A stretch of DNA of 55,361 nt. It comes from Gammaproteobacteria bacterium (GTDB lineage Bacteria > Pseudomonadota > Gammaproteobacteria > SZUA-152). The stretch is taken from contig JAOUJW010000033.1 in NCBI GenBank assembly GCA_029882975.1, forward strand, positions 1 to 55,361, in the 5' to 3' direction. Positions 1 to 15,551 of the stretch are shown piece after piece; the first letter of the stretch is position 1, and each line of letters begins with the position of its first letter. The notes beneath the pieces were generated by a model. That model was given only the letters and a program-made list of their open reading frames with translations. It was not told where the DNA came from and searched no databases. The translations under genes were made by a program, and so were the position numbers.

Positions 1-882
1 CCCATCGATCACAGTCAGACCACGGATCAGTGTGCCAACTGCCATAACAACGTCATTGCCACAGGTAAAGGCCCGGGTCATATTCCCACCACCTTGGCGT
101 GTGACTCCTGTCATAACACCAACACCTGGGTAGGGGCCGTGTTCAATCACGCCTTAGTGGCCGGGCAAGCCTGTGCTCAGGCCGGTTGCCACGATGGCGC
201 CAGTGGATTGACCTTTAAGTCTGTCACTCACCCCATCACCAGCAATCTGTGCGATCGTTGTCATACCACCAACGTCTGGACCCCCACGTTGCAACCCATC
301 GACCACAGCCAGACCACGGATCAGTGCGCCAACTGCCACAACAACGTCATTGCCACAGGTAAAGGCCCGGGTCATATTCCCACCACCCTGGCGTGCGATT
401 CCTGCCATAGTACCAACACCTGGGCCGGGGCCACCTTCAACCATGCCCTGGTGGCCGGGCAAGCCTGTGCTCAGGCCGGTTGTCACGATGGCACCAGTGG
501 TCGGACCTTCAAATCCGCCACTCACCCCATTACCAGTAACCTCTGCGATCGTTGCCACAGCACCAATGTGTGGGTGCCCACATTGCAACCCATCGACCAC
601 AGCCAGACCACCGATGCTTGTGAGAACTGCCATAACAACAGCATCGCCACGGGCAAAGGACCGGGGCATATACCCACCACCTTGCCCTGTGATGCCTGCC
701 ACACCACCACAACATGGTTAGGTGCGGTATTCAATCATGCTCTTGTGGCCGGTCAGGCCTGTGCCCAGGCCGGGTGTCATGACGGTATCAGTGGGCCCAC
801 AGGCAAGCCTGCAACCCATCCCATTACCAGTAACTTATGCGACGCCTGTCATACCACCACTGCCTGGCTGCCGGTAATTGTG
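1..882 (+). repeat. Three tandem 294-bp units coding four-haem modules
   Basis: Units start at 1, 295 and 589 with the same opening codons (Pro-Ile-Asp-His-Ser-Gln), a period of exactly 294 bp or 98 residues. The next frame-matched position, 883, begins the diverged terminal module. Identity between units is high at both DNA and protein level, which points to recent duplication or gene conversion. Confidence 0.9.
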
Positions 883-1164
883 CCGTTCCGGCACGATCAG
901 ACCACGGATCGGTGTGATACCTGTCATACCTTGCCGGGAGGGCATTGCACCATAGGGCCGGGGGATGATTGCAGTGTTTGCCATGTGACCACACCGCCGT
1001 GGACCAACACCATAGGTGATTGCCCGGCCCCTCCGGCGCCGCCGCCACCCCCACCGGGTATTCCGCCACCGCCGCCGGCTGTTCCACCGCCACCGCCGCC
1101 GCCACCACCACCGCCGCCCATGGGAGGAATGGGCATGGGGGGCATGGGTGGTATGGGTATGTGA
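1..1164 (+). CDS. Multihaem c-type cytochrome, 5'-truncated by window edge
   Basis: The frame is open from base 1, so the true start and signal peptide lie outside the window. The visible 387 residues carry 14 haem-binding motifs: 11 of CxxCH type and 3 of Cx4CH type (for example CAQAGCH). Each is preceded by a conserved non-motif His (as in DHSQTTD, GHIPTT, NHALVAG, THPITSN), which suits bis-His haem ligation. The repeat unit is 98 residues with four haems. The C-terminus is a proline-rich segment with a run of 12 Pro, followed by Gly/Met repeats (GGMGMGGMGGMGM). The protein is a close paralogue of the next gene, with the same architecture and tail. It probably carries electrons in the periplasm or outside the cell; the redox partner is unknown. 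Confidence 0.92.
   Translation, partial: PIDHSQTTDQCANCHNNVIATGKGPGHIPTTLACDSCHNTNTWVGAVFNHALVAGQACAQAGCHDGASGLTFKSVTHPITSNLCDRCHTTNVWTPTLQPIDHSQTTDQCANCHNNVIATGKGPGHIPTTLACDSCHSTNTWAGATFNHALVAGQACAQAGCHDGTSGRTFKSATHPITSNLCDRCHSTNVWVPTLQPIDHSQTTDACENCHNNSIATGKGPGHIPTTLPCDACHTTTTWLGAVFNHALVAGQACAQAGCHDGISGPTGKPATHPITSNLCDACHTTTAWLPVIVPFRHDQTTDRCDTCHTLPGGHCTIGPGDDCSVCHVTTPPWTNTIGDCPAPPAPPPPPPGIPPPPPAVPPPPPPPPPPPPMGGMGMGGMGGMGM
1048..1161 (+). repeat. Polyproline / Gly-Met low-complexity tail coding region
   Basis: The DNA is a CCG/CCA-rich microsatellite-like tract that encodes proline runs, followed by GGN-ATG repeats that encode Gly-Gly-Met. The tract should be prone to replication slippage. 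The same tail ends the next cytochrome. Confidence 0.85.
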
Positions 1165-1513: not shown

Positions 1514-4500
1514 ATGCAAGCACTAGGGCGGGTCATGAGTAGCAGACGCGGTCTACAACGCACATGTTGTGGCGTTTTCCTGTTGCTGTCTCTTTTTTTT
1601 CTGGGTGAGTTGCTCGCAGCACCGGCGCCTGCGGCTGATGACACACCTTTAAAAGATCCTACGGACTTTGATCATACCCAAACCGGCTTTCCATTGTTGG
1701 GCCTGCACGATTTGCTGGCTTGCGAAGATTGCCATTTCAATTCCATTTTCGAAGCACTACCGACCCAATGTTCTGCTTGTCATGATGGCAGTTTGGCCAT
1801 CGGCCAGCCTGTGGATCATATTGTTACCGCGGCACCTTGCGACAGCTGTCACGAACCGACGGGTTTTGCCATATCCGCCGCTGCGGTCTTTGATCATAGT
1901 GTGGTGGGCGTTCGTCCCTGTTTTTCATGTCACAATGGAATTTTGGCCACTGGAATGGATGCTCAGCATCTCCCCACCAGTAACCGTTGCGAAAGTTGTC
2001 ACAATACGCAAGCCTGGCTGCCCATAACGGGGTTTGATCACACCGAAGCGCCAAGCCGTTGCTCGCTTTGTCATGACGGCATCAGGGCTACCGGCAAAGG
2101 TCCCACTCATATAGTTACTAATGAGGAATGCGAAGTATGCCACTTTGATACCAGTAATTGGTTTGCGGCTTTTGATCACAGTACTGTGGCAGGGCAGGCT
2201 TGTGCCAGTGCCGGTTGTCATGATGGTACAGGAACCGGCTTAGGCAAGACAGCGACTCATCCCTTAACCAGTGATTTGTGTGAGCGGTGTCACCGTACCG
2301 GCGGATCTTTTTCACCTACTTTAATCCCCATCGATCACGGTCAGACCACAGACGCCTGTGCCAACTGCCACAATAACGTCGTTGCCACAGGGAAAGGCCC
2401 CAATCACATACCCACTACTTTGGCCTGCGACGTGTGTCATAACACCACCAGCTGGCTGAGTGTGACTTTTGACCACACGTTGGTGGCCGGGCAGGCCTGT
2501 GCCGGCAGCGGTTGTCACGATGGTTTGAGCGGCGTCACCGGTAAAAGTGCCACCCATCCTCCCAGCACCGATCAATGCCAAAGTTGTCACAGTACCACTG
2601 TCTGGGTGCCGGTTTTGACTCCCATGGATCACAGTCAAACCAGTGCAGCTTGCGCCAGCGCCGGTTGTCACGACGGTAACAGCAGCGGTACCGGCAAAAC
2701 GGCCACTCATCCGACTACCACCGACGCCTGCGAAACCTGCCACACCAATAGTGCCTGGTTGCCACTGATTTTGCCGTTCCGTCACGATCAGGCCGTAATT
2801 ACCGATTGTGCTACTGCCGGGTGTCACAGCAGCGCCGATAAAAGCGTTACTCATCCGCTCACCAGTGATCTATGTCAAGCTTGTCACACCAGTTCTGCCT
2901 GGTTACCTCTGGTGTTGCCCTTTGCACACGATCAAGCCGCTGATGTATGCAGCAACTGTCACAACGGCAGCATTGCCTTGGGCAAACATCCTGCTCACGT
3001 GCCCACCACAGCGGAATGTGATATTTGTCATCACAGCACCTTGAGTTTTCTGGTTTCCATATTTGATCATGGCACGGTGGTGGGGCAACCCTGTGCACAA
3101 TCCGGCTGTCACGATGGCACTGGCATTGGCTTGGGTAAGAGCCTGAACCATCCGCTCACCACCGAAGCCTGTGAACTGTGTCATCAGTTCAGTGGTTGGA
3201 CCCTGTTATTGACTCCATTCAACCACAGCCAAACCACCGCAGCCTGTTTCAGCAGTGGCTGCCATGATGGTCTGGGTCTTGCCGGTGGTAAGAGCACGAA
3301 CCACCCGCAAAGCAGTGATAATTGCCAGGCTTGCCACACGGATACCGCCTGGATACCCCTGCGGCTACCGTTTGGCCACAGCGAAACCCAAGCGGCCTGT
3401 TTTAGCGCCGGTTGTCATGACGGCAACAGTGTTGCTGCCGGGAAAGGAGCTGCACATCCCTTAACTACGGATACCTGTGAGCTGTGCCACACAAACACTG
3501 CTTGGTCACCAACCTTATTACCGTTTAACCACAGCCAGACCAATGACGCTTGTGGTAACTGTCACAACAACACTATTGCTATTGGCAAGGGTGCCAGTCA
3601 TCCAACCAGTGTGGATGCCTGCGAGCTGTGTCATCTTTATATCAACTTTGTGACTTTGGTGACTCCGTTCGATCACAGTCAGACCAGCGCGGCCTGTAAT
3701 GCGGCGGGTTGTCATGACGGTGTGAGTGCTCGCCCATTTAAGAGCGCGACACATCCCTTGACCTCCGATGTGTGTCAGTCTTGTCATAATAACACCGCCT
3801 GGGTTCCCACTCTGATACCCATTGATCATACGCAGACCACGGATGCTTGTGCCAACTGCCACAACAATGCTATTGCTACGGGGAAGGGTCCCACTCACAT
3901 CGTGACCACTGCGCCTTGTGATACCTGTCATAACACCACGACCTGGCTGGGTGCCTTTGATCACAGTCTGGTGGCCGGTCAGCCCTGTGCTCAATCCGGC
4001 TGTCATGACGGCACCGGGACGCCAACCTATAAACCGGCAAGTCATCCCTTAACCACCGAGGCTTGTGAAGCCTGCCACAGCAGTAACGGCGCATGGTTAC
4101 CGGTTATCCTGCCATTTGATCACAGTCAGATAAACGATGCCTGTGCCAACTGCCACAACGGTACAATTGCAACGGGCAAAGGACCAAGCCATGTGGCAAC
4201 AACCGCCGCTTGCGATGTGTGTCATACCACAACATCATGGTTGGGAGCGGCTTTTGATCACAGCACTGTAGTTGGCCAACCATGTACACAATCCGGTTGC
4301 CACGATGGTGTAAGCCCAAGAACGGTAAAATCCGTCACCCATCCGGTAACCAGTAATTTGTGCGATCGTTGTCATACCACTAACGCCTGGCGACCCACAT
4401 TACAACCCATTGACCACAGCCAGACCACCGATGCCTGCGAAAACTGTCATAATTCTGTGATTGCTACGGGTAAAGGTCCGACGCATATTCCTACCACCTT

Positions 4501-5866
4501 GCCCTGTGACTCCTGTCATAACACCAGCAGTTGGTTAGGGGCTGTGTTCAATCATGCTTTGGTGGCAGGGCAGGCTTGTGCCCAGTCCGGTTGTCATGAT
4601 GGGGCCGGTGGGCCTACCTTTAAGTCTGTGACCCATCCCCTCACCAGCAATTTGTGTGACCGTTGTCATACTACTAATGCCTGGCGACCCACACTACAGC
4701 CCATCGATCACAGTCAGACTACCGCGGCTTGTGAAAACTGTCACAATACGGTGATTGCTACCGGTAAAGGTCCGGGACATATTGTTACAACATTGCCGTG
4801 CGATTCCTGCCACAACACCAGTTCCTGGTTAAATGCAACTTTTAATCATTCTCTGGTAACGGGACAACCCTGCGCTCAAGCCGGTTGTCATGACGGAGCC
4901 GGTGGTGCCACCTTTAAATCCGTGAATCATCCGGTCACCAGCAATTTGTGCGATCGTTGTCATACCACCAACGTCTGGATACCCACACTACAGCCCATTG
5001 ATCACAGTCAGACCACCGCCGCCTGTGCCAATTGCCACAACAATACCATTGCCACCGGTAAAGGCCCGGGGCATATTCCAACCACTTTGCCTTGCGATTC
5101 ATGTCACACTACCAATACTTGGGCCGGAGCGACGTTTAACCATGCTCTGGTTGCGGGCCAACCTTGTGCCCAGTCCGGCTGCCACGATGGAGTCAGCGGT
5201 CCTACCTTTAAATCCGGCACTCACCCGTTGACCAGTAATTTGTGTGATCGTTGCCACACCACCAATGTGTGGGTGCCCACGTTGCAACCCATCGATCACA
5301 GCCAGACCACAGCGGCTTGTGAAAGCTGTCATAACAACACAATTGCTACAGGCAAGGGTCCGGGGCATATACCCACTACCTTACCTTGCGATTCCTGTCA
5401 CACCACCACGACTTGGCTTGGGGCGGTATTCAATCATGCCTTGGTCGCCGGCCAGGCTTGCGCCCAGGCGGGCTGCCATGATGGCGTGAGCGGTCCAACG
5501 GGTAAATCCGCTGCGCATCCCATCACCAGCAATTTGTGCGAGGCATGTCACACCACCAATGCCTGGGTGCCGGTGATTGTGCCGTTCCGGCACGATCAGA
5601 CCACGGATCGGTGTGATACCTGTCATAATTTGCCGGGGGGACATTGCGCCATAGGTGCGGGCCAGGATTGCTCTGCTTGTCACGTGACGACCTCATGGGT
5701 TAACACTATTGCCGATTGTCCGGCAACCCCGGCGCCACCACCGGCGCCAGGCTTACCGCCACCGCCGCCGGGCGTTCCGCCGCCACCGCCACCGCCGCCA
5801 CCACCGCCACCACCGCCACCGGCGGGTGGAGGTATGGGGGGTATGGGCGGAATGGGTGGCATGTAA
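1514..5866 (+). CDS. Giant multihaem c-type cytochrome (55 haem-binding motifs)
   Basis: The protein is 1450 residues with a Sec signal peptide over about the first 42 (hydrophobic core FLLLSLFFLGELLAA). Reading through it gives 55 haem motifs, 41 CxxCH and 14 Cx4CH, about one per 26 residues. An additional conserved His precedes nearly every motif, which suggests bis-His haems throughout. From 3818 onward the gene consists of six exact 98-residue four-haem units; the N-terminal part is older and more diverged. Residues 1403-1450 form a Pro-rich tail (15 consecutive Pro at 1422-1436) ending in GGM repeats. ATG at 1514 or 1535 could be the start. The product should mature in the periplasm through the Ccm system and may be exported or surface-exposed. 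A long-range electron conduit is an inference; no porin partner gene is visible nearby. Confidence 0.95.
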   Translation: MQALGRVMSSRRGLQRTCCGVFLLLSLFFLGELLAAPAPAADDTPLKDPTDFDHTQTGFPLLGLHDLLACEDCHFNSIFEALPTQCSACHDGSLAIGQPVDHIVTAAPCDSCHEPTGFAISAAAVFDHSVVGVRPCFSCHNGILATGMDAQHLPTSNRCESCHNTQAWLPITGFDHTEAPSRCSLCHDGIRATGKGPTHIVTNEECEVCHFDTSNWFAAFDHSTVAGQACASAGCHDGTGTGLGKTATHPLTSDLCERCHRTGGSFSPTLIPIDHGQTTDACANCHNNVVATGKGPNHIPTTLACDVCHNTTSWLSVTFDHTLVAGQACAGSGCHDGLSGVTGKSATHPPSTDQCQSCHSTTVWVPVLTPMDHSQTSAACASAGCHDGNSSGTGKTATHPTTTDACETCHTNSAWLPLILPFRHDQAVITDCATAGCHSSADKSVTHPLTSDLCQACHTSSAWLPLVLPFAHDQAADVCSNCHNGSIALGKHPAHVPTTAECDICHHSTLSFLVSIFDHGTVVGQPCAQSGCHDGTGIGLGKSLNHPLTTEACELCHQFSGWTLLLTPFNHSQTTAACFSSGCHDGLGLAGGKSTNHPQSSDNCQACHTDTAWIPLRLPFGHSETQAACFSAGCHDGNSVAAGKGAAHPLTTDTCELCHTNTAWSPTLLPFNHSQTNDACGNCHNNTIAIGKGASHPTSVDACELCHLYINFVTLVTPFDHSQTSAACNAAGCHDGVSARPFKSATHPLTSDVCQSCHNNTAWVPTLIPIDHTQTTDACANCHNNAIATGKGPTHIVTTAPCDTCHNTTTWLGAFDHSLVAGQPCAQSGCHDGTGTPTYKPASHPLTTEACEACHSSNGAWLPVILPFDHSQINDACANCHNGTIATGKGPSHVATTAACDVCHTTTSWLGAAFDHSTVVGQPCTQSGCHDGVSPRTVKSVTHPVTSNLCDRCHTTNAWRPTLQPIDHSQTTDACENCHNSVIATGKGPTHIPTTLPCDSCHNTSSWLGAVFNHALVAGQACAQSGCHDGAGGPTFKSVTHPLTSNLCDRCHTTNAWRPTLQPIDHSQTTAACENCHNTVIATGKGPGHIVTTLPCDSCHNTSSWLNATFNHSLVTGQPCAQAGCHDGAGGATFKSVNHPVTSNLCDRCHTTNVWIPTLQPIDHSQTTAACANCHNNTIATGKGPGHIPTTLPCDSCHTTNTWAGATFNHALVAGQPCAQSGCHDGVSGPTFKSGTHPLTSNLCDRCHTTNVWVPTLQPIDHSQTTAACESCHNNTIATGKGPGHIPTTLPCDSCHTTTTWLGAVFNHALVAGQACAQAGCHDGVSGPTGKSAAHPITSNLCEACHTTNAWVPVIVPFRHDQTTDRCDTCHNLPGGHCAIGAGQDCSACHVTTSWVNTIADCPATPAPPPAPGLPPPPPGVPPPPPPPPPPPPPPPAGGGMGGMGGMGGM
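3818..5581 (+). repeat. Six tandem 294-bp four-haem units
   Basis: Units begin at 3818, 4112, 4406, 4700, 4994 and 5288, each exactly 294 bp apart even where small compensating length changes occur inside a unit. Each unit encodes three CxxCH motifs and one Cx4CH motif. The later units are nearly identical to those in the upstream cytochrome gene. Confidence 0.9.
5720..5863 (+). repeat. Polyproline and Gly-Gly-Met tail coding tract
   Basis: It encodes residues 1403-1450: a Pro/Ala segment, a run of five Pro, a run of fifteen Pro, then four Met each preceded by Gly-Gly. Translating the long Pro run is expected to need EF-P. The tail is shared with the upstream paralogue but differs in run length. 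Confidence 0.85.
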
Positions 5867-5885: not shown

Positions 5886-5915
5886 AACGGTCTTTTTGAG
5901 ACCGTTTTGTTTTTT
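5886..5915 (+). terminator. Rho-independent terminator of the cytochrome gene
   Basis: A perfect stem of AACGGTCT (5886-5893) with AGACCGTT (5899-5906) and a 5-nt loop is followed at once by TTGTTTTTT. It lies 20 bp after the stop codon and is the clearest intrinsic terminator in the window. Confidence 0.92.
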
Positions 5916-6004: not shown

Positions 6005-6988
6005 CTATCGGGAGGGTTTCTCCTCATTGTCATTATCGGCGGGCTCAGGCTTCTCAGAATCGGATTCTACCTCAGCTTCTGATTCGGCAGACTTCGTGAT
6101 TGCCTCTGCGTCTACGTTGCTGGTATCGTTTTCTGCTTCCTTTGCGGCGATTTCAGAAATTTCTTCAGCAACAACATCCGCTTCAAGATCCACGGTACGT
6201 TCTAGATCAGCGTCTGTTTCCGGGAGCTCAGTCTCTTGAACTTCGTCAGCATTAGCCGCTTCAGCTGACACCACTACCACCGTAACGTTGTCAGTGGCTC
6301 CTCGTGCCAGAGTGGTTTCGATGAGACTTTTGCAAATATCTTCTAAATCGTTGTTTTGCAGGAGTTCGACCAGTTCGTCGTCGGCAATGTGTTTATACAG
6401 GCCATCACTACAGAGTAAGAATTTGTCGCCGGGTTGGGCTTCATCTACGTCCACATCAACAAATAATTGGTCCGATGCACCAACCGCCCGGGTAATGATA
6501 TTGGCGGCGGGATGAGACTCAGCGTCTTCCGGCAGTATAACGCCTCTTTCCACCAGTTCTTCTACTTGACTGTGATCGCGGGTGAGACGGGAGACATGAC
6601 CGTTGCGAGACAAATAAGCACGACTGTCGCCGGCCCACAGCAGGGCGTAGTGATCATCGAGCGCTACCATGGCCATGACGGTGCTGCCTATGGTGCGATT
6701 GTCTTTGTGCTGCGCTGCCAGGTCTCGCAGCTGTCGATTGACCGTGATTAAACGGTCCTCAATTTCGTCGATATAGGTGCTGAGTCGGGTACGGGGTGTA
6801 ATGGCGTCCAATTCCGATACGATACTATTACTGGCCACATCACCGGCGTGATGACCGCCCATGCCATCGGCGATAGCCCACAGTTTAATGTCCGCGCGAT
6901 CAAGGAAAGAGTCCTCGTTGATTTGCCGCACATGGCCAACGTGGGTGGAAGAGCAAGAAGTCCAACGAAGTAGTGGTGAATCAGCCAT
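6005..6988 (-). CDS. PP2C-family Ser/Thr protein phosphatase (Stp1/PrpC-like)
   Basis: It dephosphorylates Ser/Thr-phosphorylated proteins using two metal ions and is the natural antagonist of Hanks-type kinases. PPM motifs are visible in order: RQINEDSF, ADGMGGHHAGD, WAGDSRAYL, TRDHSQVEELVERG, LLCSDGLYKH and ATDNVTVVVV, with the metal-binding Asp residues intact. After about residue 245 the protein continues as an acidic, low-complexity Glu/Asp/Ala tail of about 80 residues that is not part of the catalytic fold. ATG at 6988 is preferred over a TTG four codons upstream, because GGAA sits just ahead of it. Two kinase genes lie 5-10 kb away on the same strand, so it probably counteracts them. 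It is soluble and cytoplasmic. Confidence 0.92.
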   Translation of the reverse strand: MADSPLLRWTSCSSTHVGHVRQINEDSFLDRADIKLWAIADGMGGHHAGDVASNSIVSELDAITPRTRLSTYIDEIEDRLITVNRQLRDLAAQHKDNRTIGSTVMAMVALDDHYALLWAGDSRAYLSRNGHVSRLTRDHSQVEELVERGVILPEDAESHPAANIITRAVGASDQLFVDVDVDEAQPGDKFLLCSDGLYKHIADDELVELLQNNDLEDICKSLIETTLARGATDNVTVVVVSAEAANADEVQETELPETDADLERTVDLEADVVAEEISEIAAKEAENDTSNVDAEAITKSAESEAEVESDSEKPEPADNDNEEKPSR

Positions 6989-7367
6989 TAAATTTTCCAA
7001 TTATTCATTAAGTTCCAAAAACTGCATCAAATCAGTATAGTTGACCACGCTCTCAATTCTGGAGGAACTGCTTCACGAATTTATATTTTAAGCCCACCTG
7101 CTTTGATATACGCAGTATCAAATATAAATAGCGGCAAGTTGTATCCATTTTATGAAGTGGAATTTGCAAAATAGGCTGACTACGATTTGTTCTAACTGTT
7201 TATAATTGTACGTTCCGATAACTATATATGAAATAAGCATTAGAGGTCCATACAAAAGCATAAATTTTTGGAAAATTTGCGTGCATTCTCGTAATTTAGC
7301 CGCAAATTTGGCCCGGATTTCCCAAACTAATTGATTTTATAATGGTTAAGGTAAACAGAGGATAAAA
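6989..7367. other. 379-bp AT-rich divergent intergenic region
   Basis: It separates the divergent phosphatase and flavin reductase genes. No ORF resembling a rubredoxin is present, although rubredoxin genes often sit beside this kind of reductase. Apart from the -10-like box at 7338-7343 and poly-A/T stretches I see nothing further. Confidence 0.6.
7338..7343 (+). promoter_or_regulatory. Consensus -10 box (TATAAT) for the flavin reductase
   Basis: A perfect TATAAT lies 25 bp before the ATG, and an AGAGGA ribosome site follows at about 7356-7361. No good -35 hexamer sits at 16-18 bp spacing, so the promoter may depend on an activator. A start site about 7 bp downstream would leave a very short leader. 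Confidence 0.4.
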
Positions 7368-8528
7368 ATGCGAAAACTTATCATTCTTGGTACGGGTATG
7401 GCGGCATACAGCCTTGCCAGAGAATTCCGTAAACTGGACAACGAAACCCCAATGACCTTGATCAGCGCTGATTCGGGTGATTTCTATTCCAAACCTATGT
7501 TATCGAATGCCTTGGCGCAATCCAAAACCAGCGAGACTTTGGTTACTACACCGGCGGCTAAAATGGCAGAGCAGATTGGGGCTGAAATTTTGTCCCATTG
7601 CCACGTACGCTGCATCGATAGTGAAACAAAAACTGTGGCTTATTCCCGTGACGGTGCGATTAATCAATTGAGTTATACGCAACTGGTCATCGCTTTGGGC
7701 GCAGAGCAACGTCAACTTCCCTTGGAAGGGGATAAGCAAGAGATATTGTCTGTGAACAGTCTAGAGGATTATGCGGTGTTTGAAAAACGCCTTAAAGACA
7801 GTGCTCATGTGGCAATAATTGGTTCCGGTTTGATCGGTTGCGAGTTTGCCAACGATATTATTACCACAGGACGTAAAGTGACAGTAGTGGGCGCATCCGC
7901 ATTTCCTTTAGCCAATTTGTTGCCGGAGCAAGCCGGGGAGTTTTTCCAGAAAAAGTTACAAGAGCAGGGTATTGCATGGAAAAACGGTTTGAAAGTAGTG
8001 TCTATTGAAAAACACGCTAAGAGACTGCAATTGCGGATGAATGATGGCAGTCATTTGGATGCGGACCTGGTGTTATCGGCCATCGGTTTAGCACCGCGGG
8101 TGCAATTGGCACAGCAAGCCGGAATAGAAACCAATCGAGGTGTCGTGGTGGATACGCTATTGCAAAGCTCTGTGCCCGATGTCTACGCATTGGGAGATTG
8201 TGCTGAGATTAATGGTTTGACCCTGGCTTATATTCTTCCCATTATGCACAGCGCCAGGGCGTTGGCGAAAACACTGACAGGAACACCTACCGCAGTGAGT
8301 TTTCCCGTCATGCCCGTGGTGGTTAAAACTCCCGCTCATGCTGTGGTGGTTTCCAACCTGCCCGCGGGATCCCAGGGTCATTGGCACATTGACATTCACG
8401 CAAATGGTGTCGTTGCCTTGTTTCGGGATGAGTTGGGGAAATTATTGGCTTATGCCTTAACGGGAAGCGAAGTGAGTCGAAAACAAGAACTCAACAAGGA
8501 AGTGCCCGGGGTAATGCCTGGCCCTTAA
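7368..8528 (+). CDS. FAD-dependent NAD(P)H:rubredoxin reductase-like oxidoreductase
   Basis: The 386-residue length is typical of rubredoxin-NAD+ reductases. The N-terminal FAD dinucleotide fold is ILGTGMAAYSLAREF; the central NAD(P) fold is VAIIGSGLIGCEFAND (about residues 145-160); the second FAD motif is VYALGDCAE (about 267-275). The enzyme would move electrons from NAD(P)H through FAD to a small redox protein, as in alkane oxidation or in oxygen and NO detoxification. SD AGAGGA precedes the ATG. No rubredoxin or rubredoxin-like gene is adjacent, so the acceptor is unknown. The related NorW (flavorubredoxin reductase) family is the main alternative. Confidence 0.82.
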   Translation: MRKLIILGTGMAAYSLAREFRKLDNETPMTLISADSGDFYSKPMLSNALAQSKTSETLVTTPAAKMAEQIGAEILSHCHVRCIDSETKTVAYSRDGAINQLSYTQLVIALGAEQRQLPLEGDKQEILSVNSLEDYAVFEKRLKDSAHVAIIGSGLIGCEFANDIITTGRKVTVVGASAFPLANLLPEQAGEFFQKKLQEQGIAWKNGLKVVSIEKHAKRLQLRMNDGSHLDADLVLSAIGLAPRVQLAQQAGIETNRGVVVDTLLQSSVPDVYALGDCAEINGLTLAYILPIMHSARALAKTLTGTPTAVSFPVMPVVVKTPAHAVVVSNLPAGSQGHWHIDIHANGVVALFRDELGKLLAYALTGSEVSRKQELNKEVPGVMPGP

Positions 8529-8567
8529 ACCTTAAGTCCAATTCTTCTTTTTCTACAGTAGCGGTCA

Positions 8568-9416
8568 CTACTGCAGCACGTATAGTGGTAACAGTTCCGG
8601 CCATTGCTGTTCCCAACAACACACATGATCGAAGTGAGGCAACACTACCGTTTTGCTGTTGCTTTGTTGTTGTAGAAATTCTGTAACAATGGCTTGAGGC
8701 ACATTGGTATCTTGACCGCCAATGAAGTGAACCTGACGGATAGAAGGACGCAAGGGTTCTTGACCGGCCGGATTTATGGAACCGCTGAGTTCGGAAAATT
8801 CATGTAAGCGAGTCCACTTTTGCGTATCCAAATTGGCGGCTATGGTGACCACGGTATGAGTTTGTTCAAATCGGGGTGCCAACAACATGGCCAGTACACC
8901 GCCGCCGCTGTAGCCGATAAAACTAAGATGGGTGTAAGGGTTTTTGTTCAGATAGATGCGTAAAGCGGCAACCATGCCGCCCACTACAGTAGCGGAATAG
9001 CGTTGATGGGTCCAAAGCAGGGGTTGACAGTTACTATTCACGTTGGGCTGTTGATGCTTCCTCTCTATTCCGTAACAGGGGCGACTGAGGTAGATCGCCG
9101 GTTGTGTGTCTAAGGCCATTAGCTTTAAGGCTACCGGGTTTCTTGGGGTTGGATCAGCCGCTACCGTGAACCGGTCCAACCACGGGGAACCGTCGCCTTC
9201 GAGATAGACATGTAAATGTCGGGAGTTTAGGGAAGTGTGTTTATTGCTATAAATAACCTGTAAAAAATCTTTGGTTTGTATAGTGTGTCGATCCAAATCC
9301 AGCTTTTTGCTGAGTTGGGTCAAGCGTTCCACCGGAGTGGCGCATGCGCTCAGGCTTAAGAGCAAAACCCACAGAGTGAATACTCTGTGGGGTTGGGCTG
9401 AGTTCACGGTGCTCAA
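8568..9416 (-). CDS. Lipoprotein alpha/beta-hydrolase
   Basis: The 282-residue protein has an N-terminal lipobox (LSAC) after a hydrophobic stretch, so it is probably a lipoprotein. The hydrolase fold is indicated by the nucleophile elbow GYSGGG, a following Asp-containing loop (IGGQDTNVP) and a late His (HFDHVCCW), giving a plausible Ser-Asp-His triad. The substrate is unknown; esterase or peptidase are possible. The called start is TTG; a GTG three codons in is equally plausible. The gene begins 26 bp after the caspase-like gene on the same strand, so it is probably the third gene of a kinase-caspase-hydrolase operon. Confidence 0.72.
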   Translation of the reverse strand: MSTVNSAQPHRVFTLWVLLLSLSACATPVERLTQLSKKLDLDRHTIQTKDFLQVIYSNKHTSLNSRHLHVYLEGDGSPWLDRFTVAADPTPRNPVALKLMALDTQPAIYLSRPCYGIERKHQQPNVNSNCQPLLWTHQRYSATVVGGMVAALRIYLNKNPYTHLSFIGYSGGGVLAMLLAPRFEQTHTVVTIAANLDTQKWTRLHEFSELSGSINPAGQEPLRPSIRQVHFIGGQDTNVPQAIVTEFLQQQSNSKTVVLPHFDHVCCWEQQWPELLPLYVLQ

Positions 9417-9442
9417 TGCAAAGATGGTGTTTCAGCGTCGCA

Positions 9443-11470
9443 TCAGCTCTGTTTGGGGAGAAAGAAAAACTCCCCGGATTCGTGTCCGGCATGCCGAATT
9501 GGGGCATATAGCGGCTCTTGATTCACATTGAGTGTTTCGGCGCCAATGGATACTTTGGCAAACAGAAGATTGTAAAGCCGTTGTCCTTCCAGTATGTCGT
9601 TATTGTCGTTCAGTATATTCAGCAGAGCGTTGGCAAACAAAGAATGATTGTTACTGCCTTCATCGCTGACCGGTTTCAATCCGCCGGAGGTTAAAGCAAG
9701 TCTGGCTTTGGATTTAGCCATGGCACGCAGCCAGGTCAGACGTTCACTGCTGGAAGCATTATCATCCATTTGTGCCAGTGAAGACCGGGTCAGTGAACCG
9801 GAGTAACAGGAATCCGCTACGACCAGGACTCGTTTCACGGGCATAGAGCTGATGACATCGGAAATGGCCGAGTTGGGTATCCACTTGCGTTTATTGCTGC
9901 GATCGGCGTCCACCGGTAACCAGAACCCTGCAGTCTCATTATTGGCCAGTTCACCGTGTCCGGCGTAGTACACCAATAAATTGTCTTTTTCGGTTAATTT
10001 CTTGCTCAAGCGGTTTAAAGCCGCGAGGATCATAAAACGATTGGCGTTTACCAGTGTCGTGGTTCGAAAACCGTATTTATTGGAAAGCACAGCTGCCACA
10101 CTTTTGGCATCGTTTATGGCAGTTTTCAGTGTGGGGTATTGGGTATAGTTATTATTGCCGATGACCAGAGCATGGAAGTTACCCAGGTTGCCGGAAACTT
10201 CCTGGGTTTCCTTCTTATTAAAACCGGTTTTAACCATCCGTGGTGTATCACTTTGCACCAGATCAAATTCAATTTTGGCTCGCTTGCCTTGCCGGTCAAT
10301 AGCAACGATTTTAATGGGTTTGCGTTCCGCACTAACAGGTAGCAAGACTTTAAACAGGCCTTTTTCACTGATAGGATGCTGTTTGTCATTAATGGAAAGG
10401 GTTTTGAGACCTGCCGGTGCGTTGATATTGCCGATAATTTCCCGTGTTTTGGTTCCTGGGCGAACATTGACCACGGAGATGCCACGCATACTCACCAGCT
10501 GTGGATTCACCAGTTGAATGCTGGGACCTGCAATAGATACTTTGGCTAATTGCAGTGGCGTGACGGCGGTGCTTGGTATATCGGACGTCTGTGGAGGGGC
10601 TTCATCCGTTTGTGCCAGGCGTCGATTCAGTTCCATCTCCTTAATCACCAGTTTGGATTCCAATGCTTTTAACTTGTGTTTATCTGCATCCGTAAGGCGT
10701 TTTTGTTTTGCCAACAGGCGTTTCTGGCGACGTAAGTCACGTGTTTCCTGCGTCAGTCTATCTTTTTCCGATTGCAGCCTTTGTTGTTGTTCCTGTAAAT
10801 CTTCAGACTGTGCGGCCAGTTGTTCCTGCTCTTTGTTTAAGCCCGTTTTCAAGTTAACAATGTCACCTATGGTAGCCTTGATGGTTTCAGAGGCGATGGT
10901 GGATTCAAACTGCATATCAGTATCGCTGAGACCGGAAGCTTGACGATATAGCTCCAAGGCAAATTTTACATCTTGTGTTACCCCCAGACCTTTTTCATAA
11001 AGATAACCCAGGTTCAGTTTAGCGCGGGCATAACCTTGATCGGCGGCTTTTTTATACCAAGCGGCCGCTGTTTTATAATCGCTTTCAATGCCAAATCCTT
11101 TTTCGTAGATTTCACCCACATAGGTTTGGGCGACCATATTGCCTTCCTGGGCACTGGGTAGCCATACTTTTAAAGCGCTGGCACTGTTGGCTTGTTCATA
11201 GGCTACGTACTCACCACCGCGGTTTTCGCAGTCCAGTGCCGTCAGTTTGGCGGGGCGGCGGGGGGTGACATAAGTGGACCCTACACCCAGGCGTTTGATT
11301 TGCCCGGGCAGCAGGCAATCCACAATCATCAATTTGTCTGCATCTTGTTCGGTTCCGTCCGTTTTCAGGAGTACCAGTTCATCTGAACCGCAAGCAGATA
11401 GCAGTGCCAAAATCGCCACGACAGGCCACCGACCGGTGACAGGTAAGAATGTTGGGTTTGTTAAGTGCAT
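9443..11470 (-). CDS. Caspase-like (C14/metacaspase) lipoprotein with Sel1 repeats and coiled coil
   Basis: From the ATG at 11470 (SD GAGG six bases upstream) the protein has 675 residues. A signal peptide ends in lipobox LSAC (Cys27). Sel1-type repeats follow (about 108-180), then a charged coiled coil (about 211-290), a beta-rich linker, and a caspase fold from about 430 with FHALVIGNNNY, the catalytic His in YYAGHG (H505) and the catalytic Cys in DSCYSG (C555). Both catalytic residues are present, so proteolysis after Arg/Lys or Asp is possible. Predicted location is a periplasm-facing membrane anchor. The gene starts 25 bp after a Ser/Thr kinase, so the two are very likely co-transcribed. 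Upstream in-frame ATGs at 11494 and 11488 lack an SD. Confidence 0.88.
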   Translation of the reverse strand: MHLTNPTFLPVTGRWPVVAILALLSACGSDELVLLKTDGTEQDADKLMIVDCLLPGQIKRLGVGSTYVTPRRPAKLTALDCENRGGEYVAYEQANSASALKVWLPSAQEGNMVAQTYVGEIYEKGFGIESDYKTAAAWYKKAADQGYARAKLNLGYLYEKGLGVTQDVKFALELYRQASGLSDTDMQFESTIASETIKATIGDIVNLKTGLNKEQEQLAAQSEDLQEQQQRLQSEKDRLTQETRDLRRQKRLLAKQKRLTDADKHKLKALESKLVIKEMELNRRLAQTDEAPPQTSDIPSTAVTPLQLAKVSIAGPSIQLVNPQLVSMRGISVVNVRPGTKTREIIGNINAPAGLKTLSINDKQHPISEKGLFKVLLPVSAERKPIKIVAIDRQGKRAKIEFDLVQSDTPRMVKTGFNKKETQEVSGNLGNFHALVIGNNNYTQYPTLKTAINDAKSVAAVLSNKYGFRTTTLVNANRFMILAALNRLSKKLTEKDNLLVYYAGHGELANNETAGFWLPVDADRSNKRKWIPNSAISDVISSMPVKRVLVVADSCYSGSLTRSSLAQMDDNASSSERLTWLRAMAKSKARLALTSGGLKPVSDEGSNNHSLFANALLNILNDNNDILEGQRLYNLLFAKVSIGAETLNVNQEPLYAPIRHAGHESGEFFFLPKQS

Positions 11471-11495
11471 ATTAAACCTCGTAAACATGAACATA

Positions 11496-13193
11496 TTAAT
11501 GTTTGGGTACAGTAGTGACCATTAAGTATTTTGCCGTTAAATGCTTTTGCTGGGTCACAATTTGCTTGTGCAATAGCGACAAATAGTCCTGGGCATTTTC
11601 TTTCGTTGGGCGTTCACCAATGAGCGGTTCATTGGTCGCCATGACCACAATTTGGTTTTCGCCAAAAGGCTTTTGAACTTTCCACTGCTTGGCGTTGGAT
11701 GTGATACTGATACTTTTTAACGGTGCATGTTTTGCCGGCCGATTGTCTGTAGGGTAAAGGTGCACCACGCTGCCGTCAGAACGAAAATAGTCAACATAGA
11801 CGTAAGATTCAAAATCCGGGGTAAATAGTTCCAAATCCACCGGGTTGCCTTCAGAAAAACTGGAACTGTTGGCACGGGTTTCCACGTGTAAACCGCGATT
11901 ACTCACAACGTTACTTTGTCGGTCAGTGGAAAGAATGGATGCCACTTCGCAAAAGGGCCAGCTGAGTGACTTAATATCATAGGTAACATTGCTAATGCCG
12001 GGAACCGTATCCATCATATCCATTAATGCGAGCAAATCCTCTTCATGTGAAATATGGCCTTTGACCAATAGAGCATTATTGGCATCGGCTTGACTGCTTA
12101 AAGAGGCGCACTCGAATTGCAACAGGTTATAAGCGATTTTCTCCTGAATTTGTTCATCCAGATTGGATCCGCTTACTATCTTATTTCTGTCAATTTTAGC
12201 CGCATTGGGCGTGATCCCTTGCTTGGGAATTGCCGGTATGGATGTTGTTTCGATTTGCGTGGGCGGTTCAATGTTGTTTGAGGGAAAATGTTTGATTAGG
12301 CCCAGTACAATCATGGCTACGGCGGTAACCGCCAACCCCATGGGCAGCCAGTTATGCTGTTGGTTCTTTCCGGCTGATGTTGTTTCCGACTGTTGAAATG
12401 CCTGCAGTAATTCGGTGGCTGATTGAAATCGTTGTTCCGGTTCTTTGCTCAATAATTTGTTTATGATGCTGTTTAAATGTGCCGGTATATTTCGCACGGT
12501 ATGTTCTAAGGGTTCCGGGTTCTGATGCGCTATTTGGTAGGTGAGTGCGGCGAGGGTATCACCGCCAAATGGCTTGTGACCGGTGAGTAATTGGTACAGA
12601 ACCACTCCCAAAGAGAACAAGTCTGTACGGGCATCCAAAGACTTGCCTAATATTTGCTCAGGCGACATATATTTGGGTGTTCCCAAAACTTGTCCCTGCA
12701 AGGTGGAGCGAGTAATTTCCAGGTTTTCAATTCGGGCGATACCAAAATCCGTCAAAATAGCTTGTTGCGTTTTTTCAGACCAGGCGATGTTGGCCGGTTT
12801 TATGTCTCGGTGTATAACACCAAAGCTGTGAGCCCTTTCCAGTGCGGCTGCCAGTTGGGTGCCGATTCTAATAGTTTCATTGACGCTGAAACGTTTATTC
12901 TCTGCGGCCTTGTCCAGAAACCGGCCGGAAAGCAATTCCATGGCAATATAAGGTTGACCATTGGTTTCGCCCACATCGTAGATTTTGACGATATTGGGGT
13001 GGTTAAGTTTTCCTACCGCTTGTGTTTCACGGAGAAAACGATTGCGAAAATCCGGATTCACACAATGCTCCGGGCGTAAGATTTTTATGGCCAACTCCCG
13101 CTTAATCCGCGGATCGAAGGCTTTAAAAACCGTGGCCATTGCGCCACGGCCCAGTTCGCCTAGTATTTCATATCTGTCTATATTAAAGTTCAT
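11496..13193 (-). CDS. Hanks-type Ser/Thr protein kinase with TM and DUF4384-like C-terminus
   Basis: The 565-residue protein has an N-terminal kinase domain (about 8-265) with glycine loop GELGRGAMATVF, Lys37 in AIK, HRDIKPAN (HRD at 128-130), DFG (149-151) and SPEQ, all consistent with activity. One TM segment (about 282-302) follows. The periplasmic part has a BON-like stretch (about 370-420) and a DUF4384-like domain (about 440-535, VDLELFTPDF through VVMATNEPLIGERPT), a domain often found with caspase-like proteins. It is the first gene of the kinase-caspase-hydrolase cluster. The PP2C gene at 6005 could oppose it. The DUF4384 assignment is by recognition only. Confidence 0.9.
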   Translation of the reverse strand: MNFNIDRYEILGELGRGAMATVFKAFDPRIKRELAIKILRPEHCVNPDFRNRFLRETQAVGKLNHPNIVKIYDVGETNGQPYIAMELLSGRFLDKAAENKRFSVNETIRIGTQLAAALERAHSFGVIHRDIKPANIAWSEKTQQAILTDFGIARIENLEITRSTLQGQVLGTPKYMSPEQILGKSLDARTDLFSLGVVLYQLLTGHKPFGGDTLAALTYQIAHQNPEPLEHTVRNIPAHLNSIINKLLSKEPEQRFQSATELLQAFQQSETTSAGKNQQHNWLPMGLAVTAVAMIVLGLIKHFPSNNIEPPTQIETTSIPAIPKQGITPNAAKIDRNKIVSGSNLDEQIQEKIAYNLLQFECASLSSQADANNALLVKGHISHEEDLLALMDMMDTVPGISNVTYDIKSLSWPFCEVASILSTDRQSNVVSNRGLHVETRANSSSFSEGNPVDLELFTPDFESYVYVDYFRSDGSVVHLYPTDNRPAKHAPLKSISITSNAKQWKVQKPFGENQIVVMATNEPLIGERPTKENAQDYLSLLHKQIVTQQKHLTAKYLMVTTVPKH

Positions 13194-13585
13194 AATTGTG
13201 TGAAAAACGTATATAGAACACCGGAGGAATTATCTTATCGTAACAAAATATTCTATGTGTTTTTCTTGGGAATAAATACAGCAATATTCACGTTTGAGGA
13301 TTTTTTTGACCTGATTTTGGTTTTTGCCGTATCATTTGGCTTGTAAACAAATGCCAGGGATTATCTGAATTAGTTCTCCCAGATATACGTGAATAAAACC
13401 TCCATTGATCCATATGTAGAGATTTATCGCCAATATCGGTGCCTTTGCTGGGGCTCTGGGGATTTCGCTATGGGTTTAGACTGGGTCTAGCTTAAAAGGT
13501 AATAATAACATTTTTTGTGATAAAGATTACATAGACAATCTTTGTTGGATATAAATAATATCATGTAAAGGAAAGCTCGGAAATA
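13194..13585. other. 392-bp divergent promoter region
   Basis: It separates the divergent kinase and outer-membrane protein genes. It is AT-rich, with no ORF. Short dyads are present, CATTTG/CAAATG (13333-13353) and TAGAC/GTCTA (13477-13489); neither is long enough to call an operator with confidence. A purine-rich AAAGGAAA precedes the barrel gene. Confidence 0.5.
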
Positions 13586-14122
13586 ATGCGAATTTTGCTT
13601 AACTATCTGCTTGCTCTGGTGGGAACCATACTGCCGTTTGCGTCGATGGCACAAAGCGGCGATCAATATTATTTACCCAAACTAGGGCAAATGGTTATTG
13701 ATATCAATAAGGCAACAAACTTGAATTCCATTGGTTTAATGTATGGTTATGGAATTACCAAACACTTTAGTTTGGAAGCTGAATTGAACAGCAGTTTAAG
13801 CGGTGGTACGTATACTAAGGAAGATGCGCTGGGAAATGTCACCGAAAAGGGTGAGTACCAGGTGCGGACCTTGGCCGCTTATGCGGCAGTGAGAAAAATT
13901 TTATGGGGTTCCGTCTATGCCAAGGGCAAAGTGGGCGTTTTATTTGAGACGGTGGAACGATCCAGTGACCGCGATCAAACCTCAAGTGATGATTCAATTG
14001 GTTTTGCGGGTGGCTTGGGTGCAGGGGCGTACTTGTTCGAGCACCTTACCATGGAACTGGAAGCCACTCAGATTGATCGAAACATCGTATTTTACAGTTT
14101 AGGGATGCACATACGATTTTAA
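13586..14122 (+). CDS. Outer-membrane beta-barrel protein
   Basis: The 178-residue protein has a clear Sec signal peptide ending in SMAQ. The remainder shows alternating hydrophobic/polar beta-strands (SIGLMYGYGITKHFSLEAE, RTLAAYAAVRKI, SIGFAGGLGAGAYLF) and ends in IRF, the C-terminal Phe signature recognised by the BAM complex. It is probably a small eight-stranded OmpA/OmpX-type barrel. The gene is two bases upstream of the TPR/LysM lipoprotein gene, so the two probably form an operon of envelope proteins between the kinase genes. Function is unknown. Confidence 0.8.
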   Translation: MRILLNYLLALVGTILPFASMAQSGDQYYLPKLGQMVIDINKATNLNSIGLMYGYGITKHFSLEAELNSSLSGGTYTKEDALGNVTEKGEYQVRTLAAYAAVRKILWGSVYAKGKVGVLFETVERSSDRDQTSSDDSIGFAGGLGAGAYLFEHLTMELEATQIDRNIVFYSLGMHIRF

Positions 14123-14124
14123 CT

Positions 14125-15543
14125 ATGCGAATACCTTTTTTTATCTTTGTGACGATTTTCCTGGCGGCATGCGGAACCATGCCATTGCCGGTGGATATAA
14201 GCAATTCTTCACGAGTCAAAACCATAGCGCAGGCCCAATTGGATGCCTTGCAACGGGATGAGGAATCTGTAGTTCCATCGAACTCAGGAGCGGAATCCCT
14301 CACCGCTGCGTCAACCTCGCCACCCGTCACCGTGGTGTTGCCCAAAGACAGCTCTGTAGCCCAACAGGATTCCCAAGGCAGTGTGGTAATTGAAACCATC
14401 AGTCACTCTGGAAAAAAGCGCATCTTGGAAAGAATGGAATCCAACGCTCAGATACAAACCTCAGCGGCAACACCCAATGTTCAGTTGCAACCTCCCATGG
14501 TTCCAAGAAAGTCTATGGAAAAGCAAAAATCCAAAATCTCCGTGGACGTGGCTCCTATTATGTCATCAGAGGCCAGCGTGGAACGTCATGTGAAACGTGC
14601 AATTGAGAAATTAAAATCAGGAAACGAACATAGAGCCCGTTTGGAATTATCCACCGCGCTGGATAAAAGACCTGACTATGCGGATGCGCAAATTTTGTTA
14701 CAGCAGATTGATCAAACACCATCTGAATATTTTCAACAATCTTCTTACTTTGAACATAAAGTTCGCGCCGGGGAAACCCTTGCTTCACTGGCTGAGCAAT
14801 ATTTGGGTAGCCATCTAATGTTCTACATGTTAGCCAAGTATAATGATTTTAGCGGTAAAATCTCGGTAAACCCCGGTATGATATTGAAAGTGCCGGGAAC
14901 CAAACCTAAAATCAGTCCTGATTCAGATATTGCGGAGCAATCTATTGAACAAATACAAACTCTGACGAAGTCGCAACGTCTCATTGTGGATGAAGCGAAA
15001 TCATTAATGGCCGAAGAAAAATATTTGAGTGCAATTGATATTCTCAGTAGTGTGAAGAATCCGTCTTCTGAAGTGGAAGATATGCTGGACAATGCATATA
15101 TCACTTACAGTTCTGAACTGATTGCAAGGCTGAGTTTGTTAGAAGCGCAAGCACTGCTGGAGTCCGCTTTGAGCAGTCGCCCGGAAAGTCGTCGCTTAAA
15201 AAAGCAACTGGTACTGGTGCAGTCAAGACGGGAAGCGGAAAAGTTGTTTAAAATAGGCTTGTCAGAGTTAAGTGCGGGAAACGAAGTGGAAGCCTATGAA
15301 GTATTCAGTAAAGCCATCGAGCTGAATCCTAAACACCTCCTCGCGAAAAAGCGCTTAACATCTATTAAGGGGAGCGTGGTAAAGGAATATCATAAGCGCG
15401 CCATGGAACACTACATGAAACAAGAATTGAAACAAGCCATTAAAATTTGGGATGAAATTCTTGAGATGGATCCTGCCCATGCCATGGCCAGGGTTTATGT
15501 TGAAAAAGCCAAGGTGCTTCAAAAACGATTGAAGCAGTTGTAA
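14125..15543 (+). CDS. Lipoprotein with LysM domain and TPR repeats
   Basis: The 472-residue protein starts with a lipoprotein signal (FLAAC, Cys at about residue 14). A low-complexity linker follows, then a TPR-like helical stretch (about 155-195), a LysM peptidoglycan-binding domain (about 210-255, VRAGETLASLAEQYLG), and a longer TPR array to the C-terminus (AYEVFSKAIELNPKH, AIKIWDEILEMDPAH). It would tether to the outer membrane and bind the cell wall, scaffolding protein complexes. The start is two bases after the barrel stop, which implies co-transcription. It converges on the second kinase gene with only an 8-bp gap and no visible terminator. Confidence 0.82.
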   Translation: MRIPFFIFVTIFLAACGTMPLPVDISNSSRVKTIAQAQLDALQRDEESVVPSNSGAESLTAASTSPPVTVVLPKDSSVAQQDSQGSVVIETISHSGKKRILERMESNAQIQTSAATPNVQLQPPMVPRKSMEKQKSKISVDVAPIMSSEASVERHVKRAIEKLKSGNEHRARLELSTALDKRPDYADAQILLQQIDQTPSEYFQQSSYFEHKVRAGETLASLAEQYLGSHLMFYMLAKYNDFSGKISVNPGMILKVPGTKPKISPDSDIAEQSIEQIQTLTKSQRLIVDEAKSLMAEEKYLSAIDILSSVKNPSSEVEDMLDNAYITYSSELIARLSLLEAQALLESALSSRPESRRLKKQLVLVQSRREAEKLFKIGLSELSAGNEVEAYEVFSKAIELNPKHLLAKKRLTSIKGSVVKEYHKRAMEHYMKQELKQAIKIWDEILEMDPAHAMARVYVEKAKVLQKRLKQL

Positions 15544-15551
15544 CCTTAGCT

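Follow-up and report, generated by a model that had tools for sequence, protein, structure and literature searches.

What is a single polypeptide with 55 haem-binding motifs built from, is its gene genuine, and what might it do for the cell? The gene lies near the start of contig C33 of a gammaproteobacterial genome (G000), and the whole contig of 55,361 nt was analysed (the window). It forms a single unbroken frame of 1450 aa with 41 CxxCH, no Cx3CH and 14 Cx4CH motifs. A preliminary description of the sequence had given exactly this count, and its density of about one haem motif per 26 residues was right as well. All 55 CH dipeptides of the protein fell inside a haem motif, and shuffling its residues in 2000 trials gave a mean of 1.4 motifs and a maximum of seven. 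The protein contains 57 His beyond the motifs, and an extra His is present since the preceding motif for 54 of the 55 motifs, in agreement with the earlier remark that nearly every motif has one. The nearest of these is located seven residues before the first Cys in 41 motifs and eight before it in 11. Only four Cys are not part of a motif: the signal region has two of them, and the other two are close to the C-terminal cap. Pfam matches were of the cytochrome c7/multihaem type or incidental Cys/His-rich ones; no enzyme domain was found by Pfam, as expected from the earlier statement that no catalytic domain is attached. No lipobox was seen by eye in the N-terminus. Having 55 haems does not make the protein a record holder, because proteins with 63 and 85 haems were already reported in 2017 (PMC5566968); frames with 80 (L056) and 144 (L131) motifs were also found here. 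The features of the locus are listed in Table 1.

Table 1. Features of the 55-haem gene and its immediate surroundings; positions refer to the window.
Feature	Position (nt)	Strand	Basis
C-terminal remainder of a tailed paralogue truncated by contig start (14 motifs)	1–1164	+	Motif count, alignment
Giant multihaem cytochrome c, 1450 aa, 55 haem motifs	1514–5866	+	Translation and motif count
Probable Sec signal peptide, about residues 1–41: hydrophobic LLLSLFFLGELL, then AAPAPAA	1514–1636	+	By eye
Conserved N-terminal entry region FDHxxTGFxLxGxH..., common to PCC3-type extracellular cytochromes	1667–2161	+	Alignment of 21 sequences; used for tree
Array of 55 haem motifs in dihaem repeats of about 49 residues	1721–5683	+	Motif count, spacing, parity
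Motifs 24–52, Cx4CH every fourth haem (tetrahaem super-period)	3398–5479	+	Motif order
C-terminal dihaem cap CxxCHxLPGGHC...DCxxCH...W.N...C	5612–5719	+	Common to four tailed proteins of own genome
Tail: proline runs, then GGGMGGMGGMGGM to last residue	5720–5863	+	Translation, tail census
Possible rho-independent terminator: 8-bp stem, 5-nt loop, T-rich run	5886–5914	+	19 bp past stop codon

The preliminary description held that the array is built from a four-haem module. When sorted by parity, the motifs fell into two alternating classes. All 28 odd motifs were CxxCH, with a Trp within the next eight residues in 23, while the 27 even motifs comprised 13 CxxCH and all 14 Cx4CH, with DG, NN or NG following in 23 cases and a Lys within the next 16 residues in 24. 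Steps between motifs of the same class measured 48–51 residues in 24 of 27 cases for the odd motifs and in 23 of 26 for the even ones. The two parity classes and this same-class spacing identify the repeating unit as a dihaem, about 49 residues long. Confinement of Cx4CH to one parity within a protein was also observed for 56 of 56 such motifs in nine proteins that are free of N and have two or more Cx4CH; this test covered the loci fetched by then, and two N-containing frames of locus L081 that were left out have agreeing patterns (424222 and 424242). A strict four-haem period is continuous only for motifs 24–52; Cx4CH occupies every other A site there and so gives the four-haem impression. 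As the basic unit, the four-haem module was ruled out, since Cx4CH is confined to one of two alternating haem sites. The dihaem rule provides a simple parts list for the design or truncation of such wires.

Could the gene be an unexpressed relic or a product of assembly? The contig starts inside a paralogous repeat, and contigs C30 and C37 of the same genome also start in tail repeats, as might be expected under such an explanation. Against it stand the one clean frame, strong purifying selection and conservation in other genomes, and we consider it highly improbable. The longest exact DNA repeat was 26 bp within the gene and 52 bp between the gene and its upstream paralogue; the short internal repeat, together with the low dN/dS of the modules, makes repeat collapse or expansion unlikely. 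For the module comparison, we took the four 98-residue C-terminal modules out of nine strict four-haem ones. These had 79–86% of residues alike versus 72–77% of bases, and dN/dS was 0.054, 0.057 and 0.084 in three of the six pairs, dS being saturated in the other three. Judged by these sequences, the modules are old copies held by purifying selection. Across proteins, 65 of the 77 invariant columns in 21 aligned N-terminal regions were Cys or His, a few of the 77 being conserved by choice because the rows were picked by the FDH..TGF motif and haem count. In 61 eight-haem windows (of 174 qualifying), all 28 invariant columns were Cys or His and seven of eight haems had an extra His; of this, only the extra His is an independent result, as the windows were cut by motif. 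Such conservation fits a bis-His haem chain for electron transfer or storage, the job that had been proposed for the protein earlier. Bis-His ligation is predicted from the extra His of 54 motifs and from a CcmF-type protein (TIGR00353) encoded in the same genome and scoring above the cut-off.

Matches to the 55-haem protein were present in 17 of 57 genomes in a sample of relatives and in 34 of 274 in a sample of the class, with its own genome counted in both. We read 51 loci, most of them fetched for matching this protein, so that the set is biased towards it. A 21-haem-type cytochrome was encoded together with another large one in 24 of these loci, a porin homologue was present in 24 and an inner-membrane homologue in 23. 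These loci are arranged as PCC3 was described by He et al. 2017 (PMC5566968), who gave median haem numbers of 34 and 21, individual values of 63 in Amphritea and 85 in Agromonas, and about 22–39 residues per haem for the extracellular multihaem cytochromes (MHCs). In Gallionellaceae, the two PCC3 cytochromes have 21–27 and 10–35 haems (PMC10734462). The N-terminal region of the 55-haem protein was 34–46% identical to cluster-encoded rows among 20 aligned N-terminal regions. On a tree of 37 N-termini (165 columns, midpoint root), it was placed on the same side as the cluster cytochrome of its own contig C37 (99/93). By sequence, then, the protein is a relative of PCC3 extracellular cytochromes. 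The earlier comparison, made in idea, with extracellular cytochrome wires stands insofar as a long bis-His chain fits, and is put more exactly by this kinship with the PCC3 extracellular subunit. PCC3 has been reported in many bacteria, and its electron-conducting role is putative.

Some of the other loci deserve mention in their own right. A single frame of 4071 aa in L131:3021-15233 (G234:C17) has 144 haem motifs (133 CxxCH, one Cx3CH and 10 Cx4CH, the last all at even positions), no N and a longest exact internal repeat of 74 bp; a PCC3-type inner-membrane protein and a 24-haem gene lie upstream, and a porin homologue lies downstream. The largest haem number in one protein given in the consulted text of PMC5566968 is 85, and more than 100 motifs have been mentioned for gene neighbourhoods (PMC11475568). 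A 2058-residue frame with 80 CxxCH motifs (L056:11071-17244, G001:C130) ends like the 31-haem proteins on contig C43 of the genome studied here. Four neighbouring ORFs with 11–15 motifs in a Phycisphaeraceae metagenome assembly (L032) are distant relatives of the 55-haem protein.

On the contig itself, the truncated paralogue ends 349 bp upstream of the 55-haem gene and shares 85% identity with its product, the same cap and a like tail. Besides these two giants and a dihaem peroxidase of the MauG type (two haem motifs) 24 kb further on, the contig has no ORF with at least two haem motifs. Neither a PCC3 porin nor an inner-membrane homologue was detected on the 55 kb (tblastn, E 1e-5), nor was a WX3HX13H frame of at least 150 aa; the PCC3 gene cluster, with its porin, periplasmic 21–24-haem MHC and inner-membrane protein, is thus absent here. 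Downstream of the gene are a convergent PP2C phosphatase, a NorW-like flavoprotein, a caspase-Sel1 protein, Ser/Thr kinases and a small OmpX-like barrel protein (178 aa, 13586–14122); at 6005–17222, the phosphatase, the caspase-Sel1 protein and two of the kinases adjoin the cytochrome genes. The best matches of the PP2C gene (64% and 62% identity) were in G004:C6 and G002:C203, where the stretches fetched contained no ORF with at least three haem motifs. The terminator stem (5886–5906) was program-listed on the minus strand, and the plus-strand T-run was read from the sequence. Terminator-like sites in the region were not above shuffles (4 vs a mean of 5.8), and neither were promoter-like sites (3 vs 6.3); Rfam gave no match over 131 kb. 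The plasmid search gave one distant match, at 24% identity, to Emticicia oligotrophica NC_018749. A join with contig C30, reversed and running into C33, was not adopted; contig G001:C30 supports conservation of the C30 side only.

As for porin–cytochrome partners elsewhere in the genome, which the preliminary description had proposed to look for, two PCC3-like clusters and an MtrB-family porin beside a decahaem protein were found. The clusters, on C1 and C37, share one gene order. An inner-membrane protein with SGxxG and two WX3HX13H comes first, followed by a 21-haem cytochrome, another cytochrome (24 motifs on C1, 17 on C37) and a putative porin (722 or 769 aa, with a signal-like N-terminus and the ends WDFL and NYTF); on C37, an additional 143-aa ORF precedes the porin. 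The MtrB-family match, the only one in the genome, adjoins the 10-motif protein on C3. Two gspD matches scored above the cut-off. Further giant cytochromes are encoded on C30 (39 and 21 motifs, both tailed) and C43 (31 and 31 motifs), and a gene for eight motifs with a PAPT tail at the start of C37 lies about 9 kb from the PCC3-like cluster there. In the latter product (L052:3-1376), the N-terminal part is long, free of haem motifs and Fn3-like by eye, and the PAPTPAPT tail runs off the contig. The tandem genes on C43 (L053:7041-9668 and 9887-12508) adjoin genes for a histidine kinase and an HD-domain protein. Their products have lipobox-like N-termini (LSAC) and, ahead of the haems, a stretch that looks Ig/PKD-like by eye, and represent a third type of giant cytochrome. 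A CHASE2-Ser/Thr kinase is encoded upstream of the C30 giant cytochromes (L051:6957-9407), an arrangement kept in a second species of the genus (L071:3909-6389).

The end of the 55-haem protein carries a feature absent from the preliminary description. Sixty residues follow the last motif: the end of the cap, proline runs and, as the last residues, GGGMGGMGGMGGM; the Pro/Gly/Met tail accounts for 48 of them. We took a census of such tails in the 51 loci, filtering for at least eight motifs, a mean spacing below 31, fewer than 60 residues per motif and no N runs. This yielded 88 cytochrome-like ORFs, 80 of them with a complete 3' end, of which 25 were periplasmic-like (unevenly spaced). The remaining 55 include some that are truncated at the 5' end, among them the first ORF of the window, and a few of non-PCC3 type, for example the 10-motif protein adjoining the MtrB match; nine had at least 48 residues past the last motif and 46 had at most 40. 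Pro, Gly, Met and His made up 64–75% of eight of the nine tails and no more than 38% of any of the 46 short ends. The ninth, in a 662-aa protein from C30, had 29%, a PKD-like insert (by eye) and the end GGMGCGM. Tail-like sequence was also present in four of eight ORFs cut at the 3' end (L051, L052, L136 and L071), and a six-motif fragment of genome G010 ends in GMGGGGGGGGGM. In total, 14 ORFs from seven genomes and three families had a tail or tail-like sequence. The tails of G059 have His as the periodic residue (GGGHGGGH) instead of Met.

Tailed proteins occurred on both sides of the N-terminal tree (99/93), which requires six changes. Well-supported branches force at least three, and these could be one gain and two losses; the tail labels came from a simple pattern that left seven rows unclassified, including the cut one from G001:C30. 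Tails may have been swapped. Among the 10 loci with tailed genes, three have a porin homologue (L052, L081 and L133) and one an inner-membrane homologue (L052), and the search for PCC3 porin homologues gave nothing in the stretches read of the other seven. An inner-membrane protein and a 21-haem gene came to light in the adjoining stretch of G059:C126. Read along one strand, that contig encodes the inner-membrane protein, the 21-haem cytochrome, a split cytochrome gene (10 and 14 motifs, the split being the cut between the two stretches read), a 34-haem cytochrome, a 193-aa ORF, tailed 73- and 37-haem proteins and, directly after the latter, a porin homologue of 1098 aa; the cluster is interrupted by a transpeptidase-like gene on the opposite strand. 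Taken together, the two stretches (L133 and L147) represent a PCC3 cluster enlarged to five or more multihaem genes. In G010, the tailed fragment precedes a 17-haem gene, a 142-aa ORF and a porin homologue. That all tailed genes are orphans was ruled out by the porin homologues in three of 10 loci and by the G059:C126 cluster.

The tail thus accompanies PCC3 in some genomes and stands apart in others; the 55-haem protein belongs to the latter kind. The tailed pair of G059 supports its link with PCC3 by analogy, because that pair is on the other side of the tree. We found no description of such a tail in the open-licence literature searched, and the words proline and methionine are absent from the main text of PMC5566968. 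The 55-haem protein is of a known kind; the variant, with no PCC3 partners on the contig, a truncated paralogue and a proline-run/Gly-Met tail, looks new. A tentative idea, which we would not favour over its negation, is that giant PCC3-type cytochromes more than once gained, or exchanged, a spacer of prolines and a Gly-rich end with regular Met or His, that some, like the 55-haem protein, left the porin clusters, and that the tail is a docking or metal-contact device letting one covalent chain of some 40–80 haems bridge the cell to another structure. Tailed members away from porin genes may let the extracellular part be studied alone.

Our main reading, to which we give a probability of about 70%, is that the 55-haem protein is a secreted haem chain of the PCC3 extracellular type, acting as conductor and reservoir together with the conduits of its genome and using its tail for attachment. 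Its haem loading, location, electron transfer, direction of flow and tail role are what we infer here. The protein, built from a signal peptide, an N-terminal entry module, some 27 dihaem units, a C-terminal dihaem cap and the tail, would be exported by Sec, loaded with haem by the Ccm system and brought to the cell surface, perhaps via the type II secretion system. At the surface, electrons would pass between the haem chain and the conduits that the genome encodes across the outer membrane (two PCC3-like clusters and one MtrAB-like pair), and the chain would both hold electrons and conduct them over long distances towards a mineral, an electrode, a sheath or a partner cell. In the tail, the proline run would act as a rigid spacer, and the Gly-Met end would serve for attachment or metal contact; that Gly with regular Met or His contacts metal is a guess. 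MtrA, with 10 haems, has a largest dimension of about 100 Å, as cited by He et al. (PMC5566968), and by extrapolation from that ratio a straight chain of 55 haems could be some 50 nm long. The wire shape is putative, given that AlphaFold2 models of pieces of the protein were poor (pLDDT 48.9 for 480 aa with 21 rows and 66.4 for 196 aa with 61 rows) and a Foldseek search of the PDB with the 196-aa model returned no matches. If all haems are loaded, one gene would yield a covalent conductor with 55 redox sites and a length set by the number of repeats, with no need for polymerisation.

This reading draws on the 24 of 51 loci (a biased sample) that pair a giant with a 21-haem-type cytochrome, on the PCC3 set of C1 and C37, which is as described in PMC5566968, and on the tailed 73- and 37-haem proteins within the PCC3 cluster of G059:C126. 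Against it, the contig has no PCC3 partner or third giant haem gene, and the link between the protein and the conduits is putative. The function of PCC3 itself is putative. Both clusters of Sideroxydans ES-1 were down-regulated on Fe(II) (PMC8788666); the extracellular subunit Slit_1448 was at 0 in all eight proteome columns, whereas its inner-membrane and porin partners were above 0 in all eight (PMC12016527); and in CL21, the inner-membrane component of one PCC3 copy rose with iron oxidation activity (PMC12442390). The lack of a PCC3 partner on the contig would also suit a periplasmic or surface electron capacitor, which would mainly store electrons and carry none over distance; 55 one-electron sites in a single chain point the same way, and such a role has been proposed for PCC3 (PMC10734462). 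We think this unlikely, as related PCC3 extracellular subunits are encoded between a 21-haem cytochrome and a porin-like gene, and the Pro/Gly/Met tail suggests attachment rather than free storage. The regular repeat, the low-complexity tail and the tandem tailed copies on C33 and C30 and in G059 and G123 might instead indicate a self-assembling nanowire like OmcS, OmcE or OmcZ, each chain forming one filament segment and the tails joining segments. A phmmer search of PDB sequences (E <= 0.01) gave one marginal match, to MtrC (E 7e-4), and none to OmcS, OmcE or OmcZ, and we regard self-assembly as quite improbable.

Placing the proposed secreted haem chain among known systems, we found that the NCBIfam model of the DmsE/MtrA decahaem family (TIGR03508) matched locally over seven stretches of its repeat. 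The score of 143.0 bits was below the curated cut-off of 192.2, however, the motifs number 55 rather than 10, and the MtrB-family match of the genome is on C3, beside the 10-motif protein. The OmcS, OmcE and OmcZ nanowires are made of small subunits that polymerise, with haems stacked over long distance. The 55-haem protein would resemble them in this working principle of stacked haems; the PDB search gave no sequence match to them. PgcA of Geobacter is, from its description, alike in being an extracellular cytochrome with proline-rich repetitive segments, which have been discussed as aiding association with oxides (PMC5732950); it differs in having three haems, PTx repeats between the haems and lipid attachment. 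With PCC3 extracellular cytochromes, the protein shares a low residue-to-haem ratio (26), haem repeat units, the N-terminal FDHxxTGF region and relatives in clusters of inner-membrane, 21-haem, giant and porin genes, two of them in its own genome. It differs from them in its contig, which carries a paralogue in tandem and no PCC3 partner genes, in its proline-run and Gly-Met tail, and in its 14 Cx4CH motifs, all of them on one haem class.
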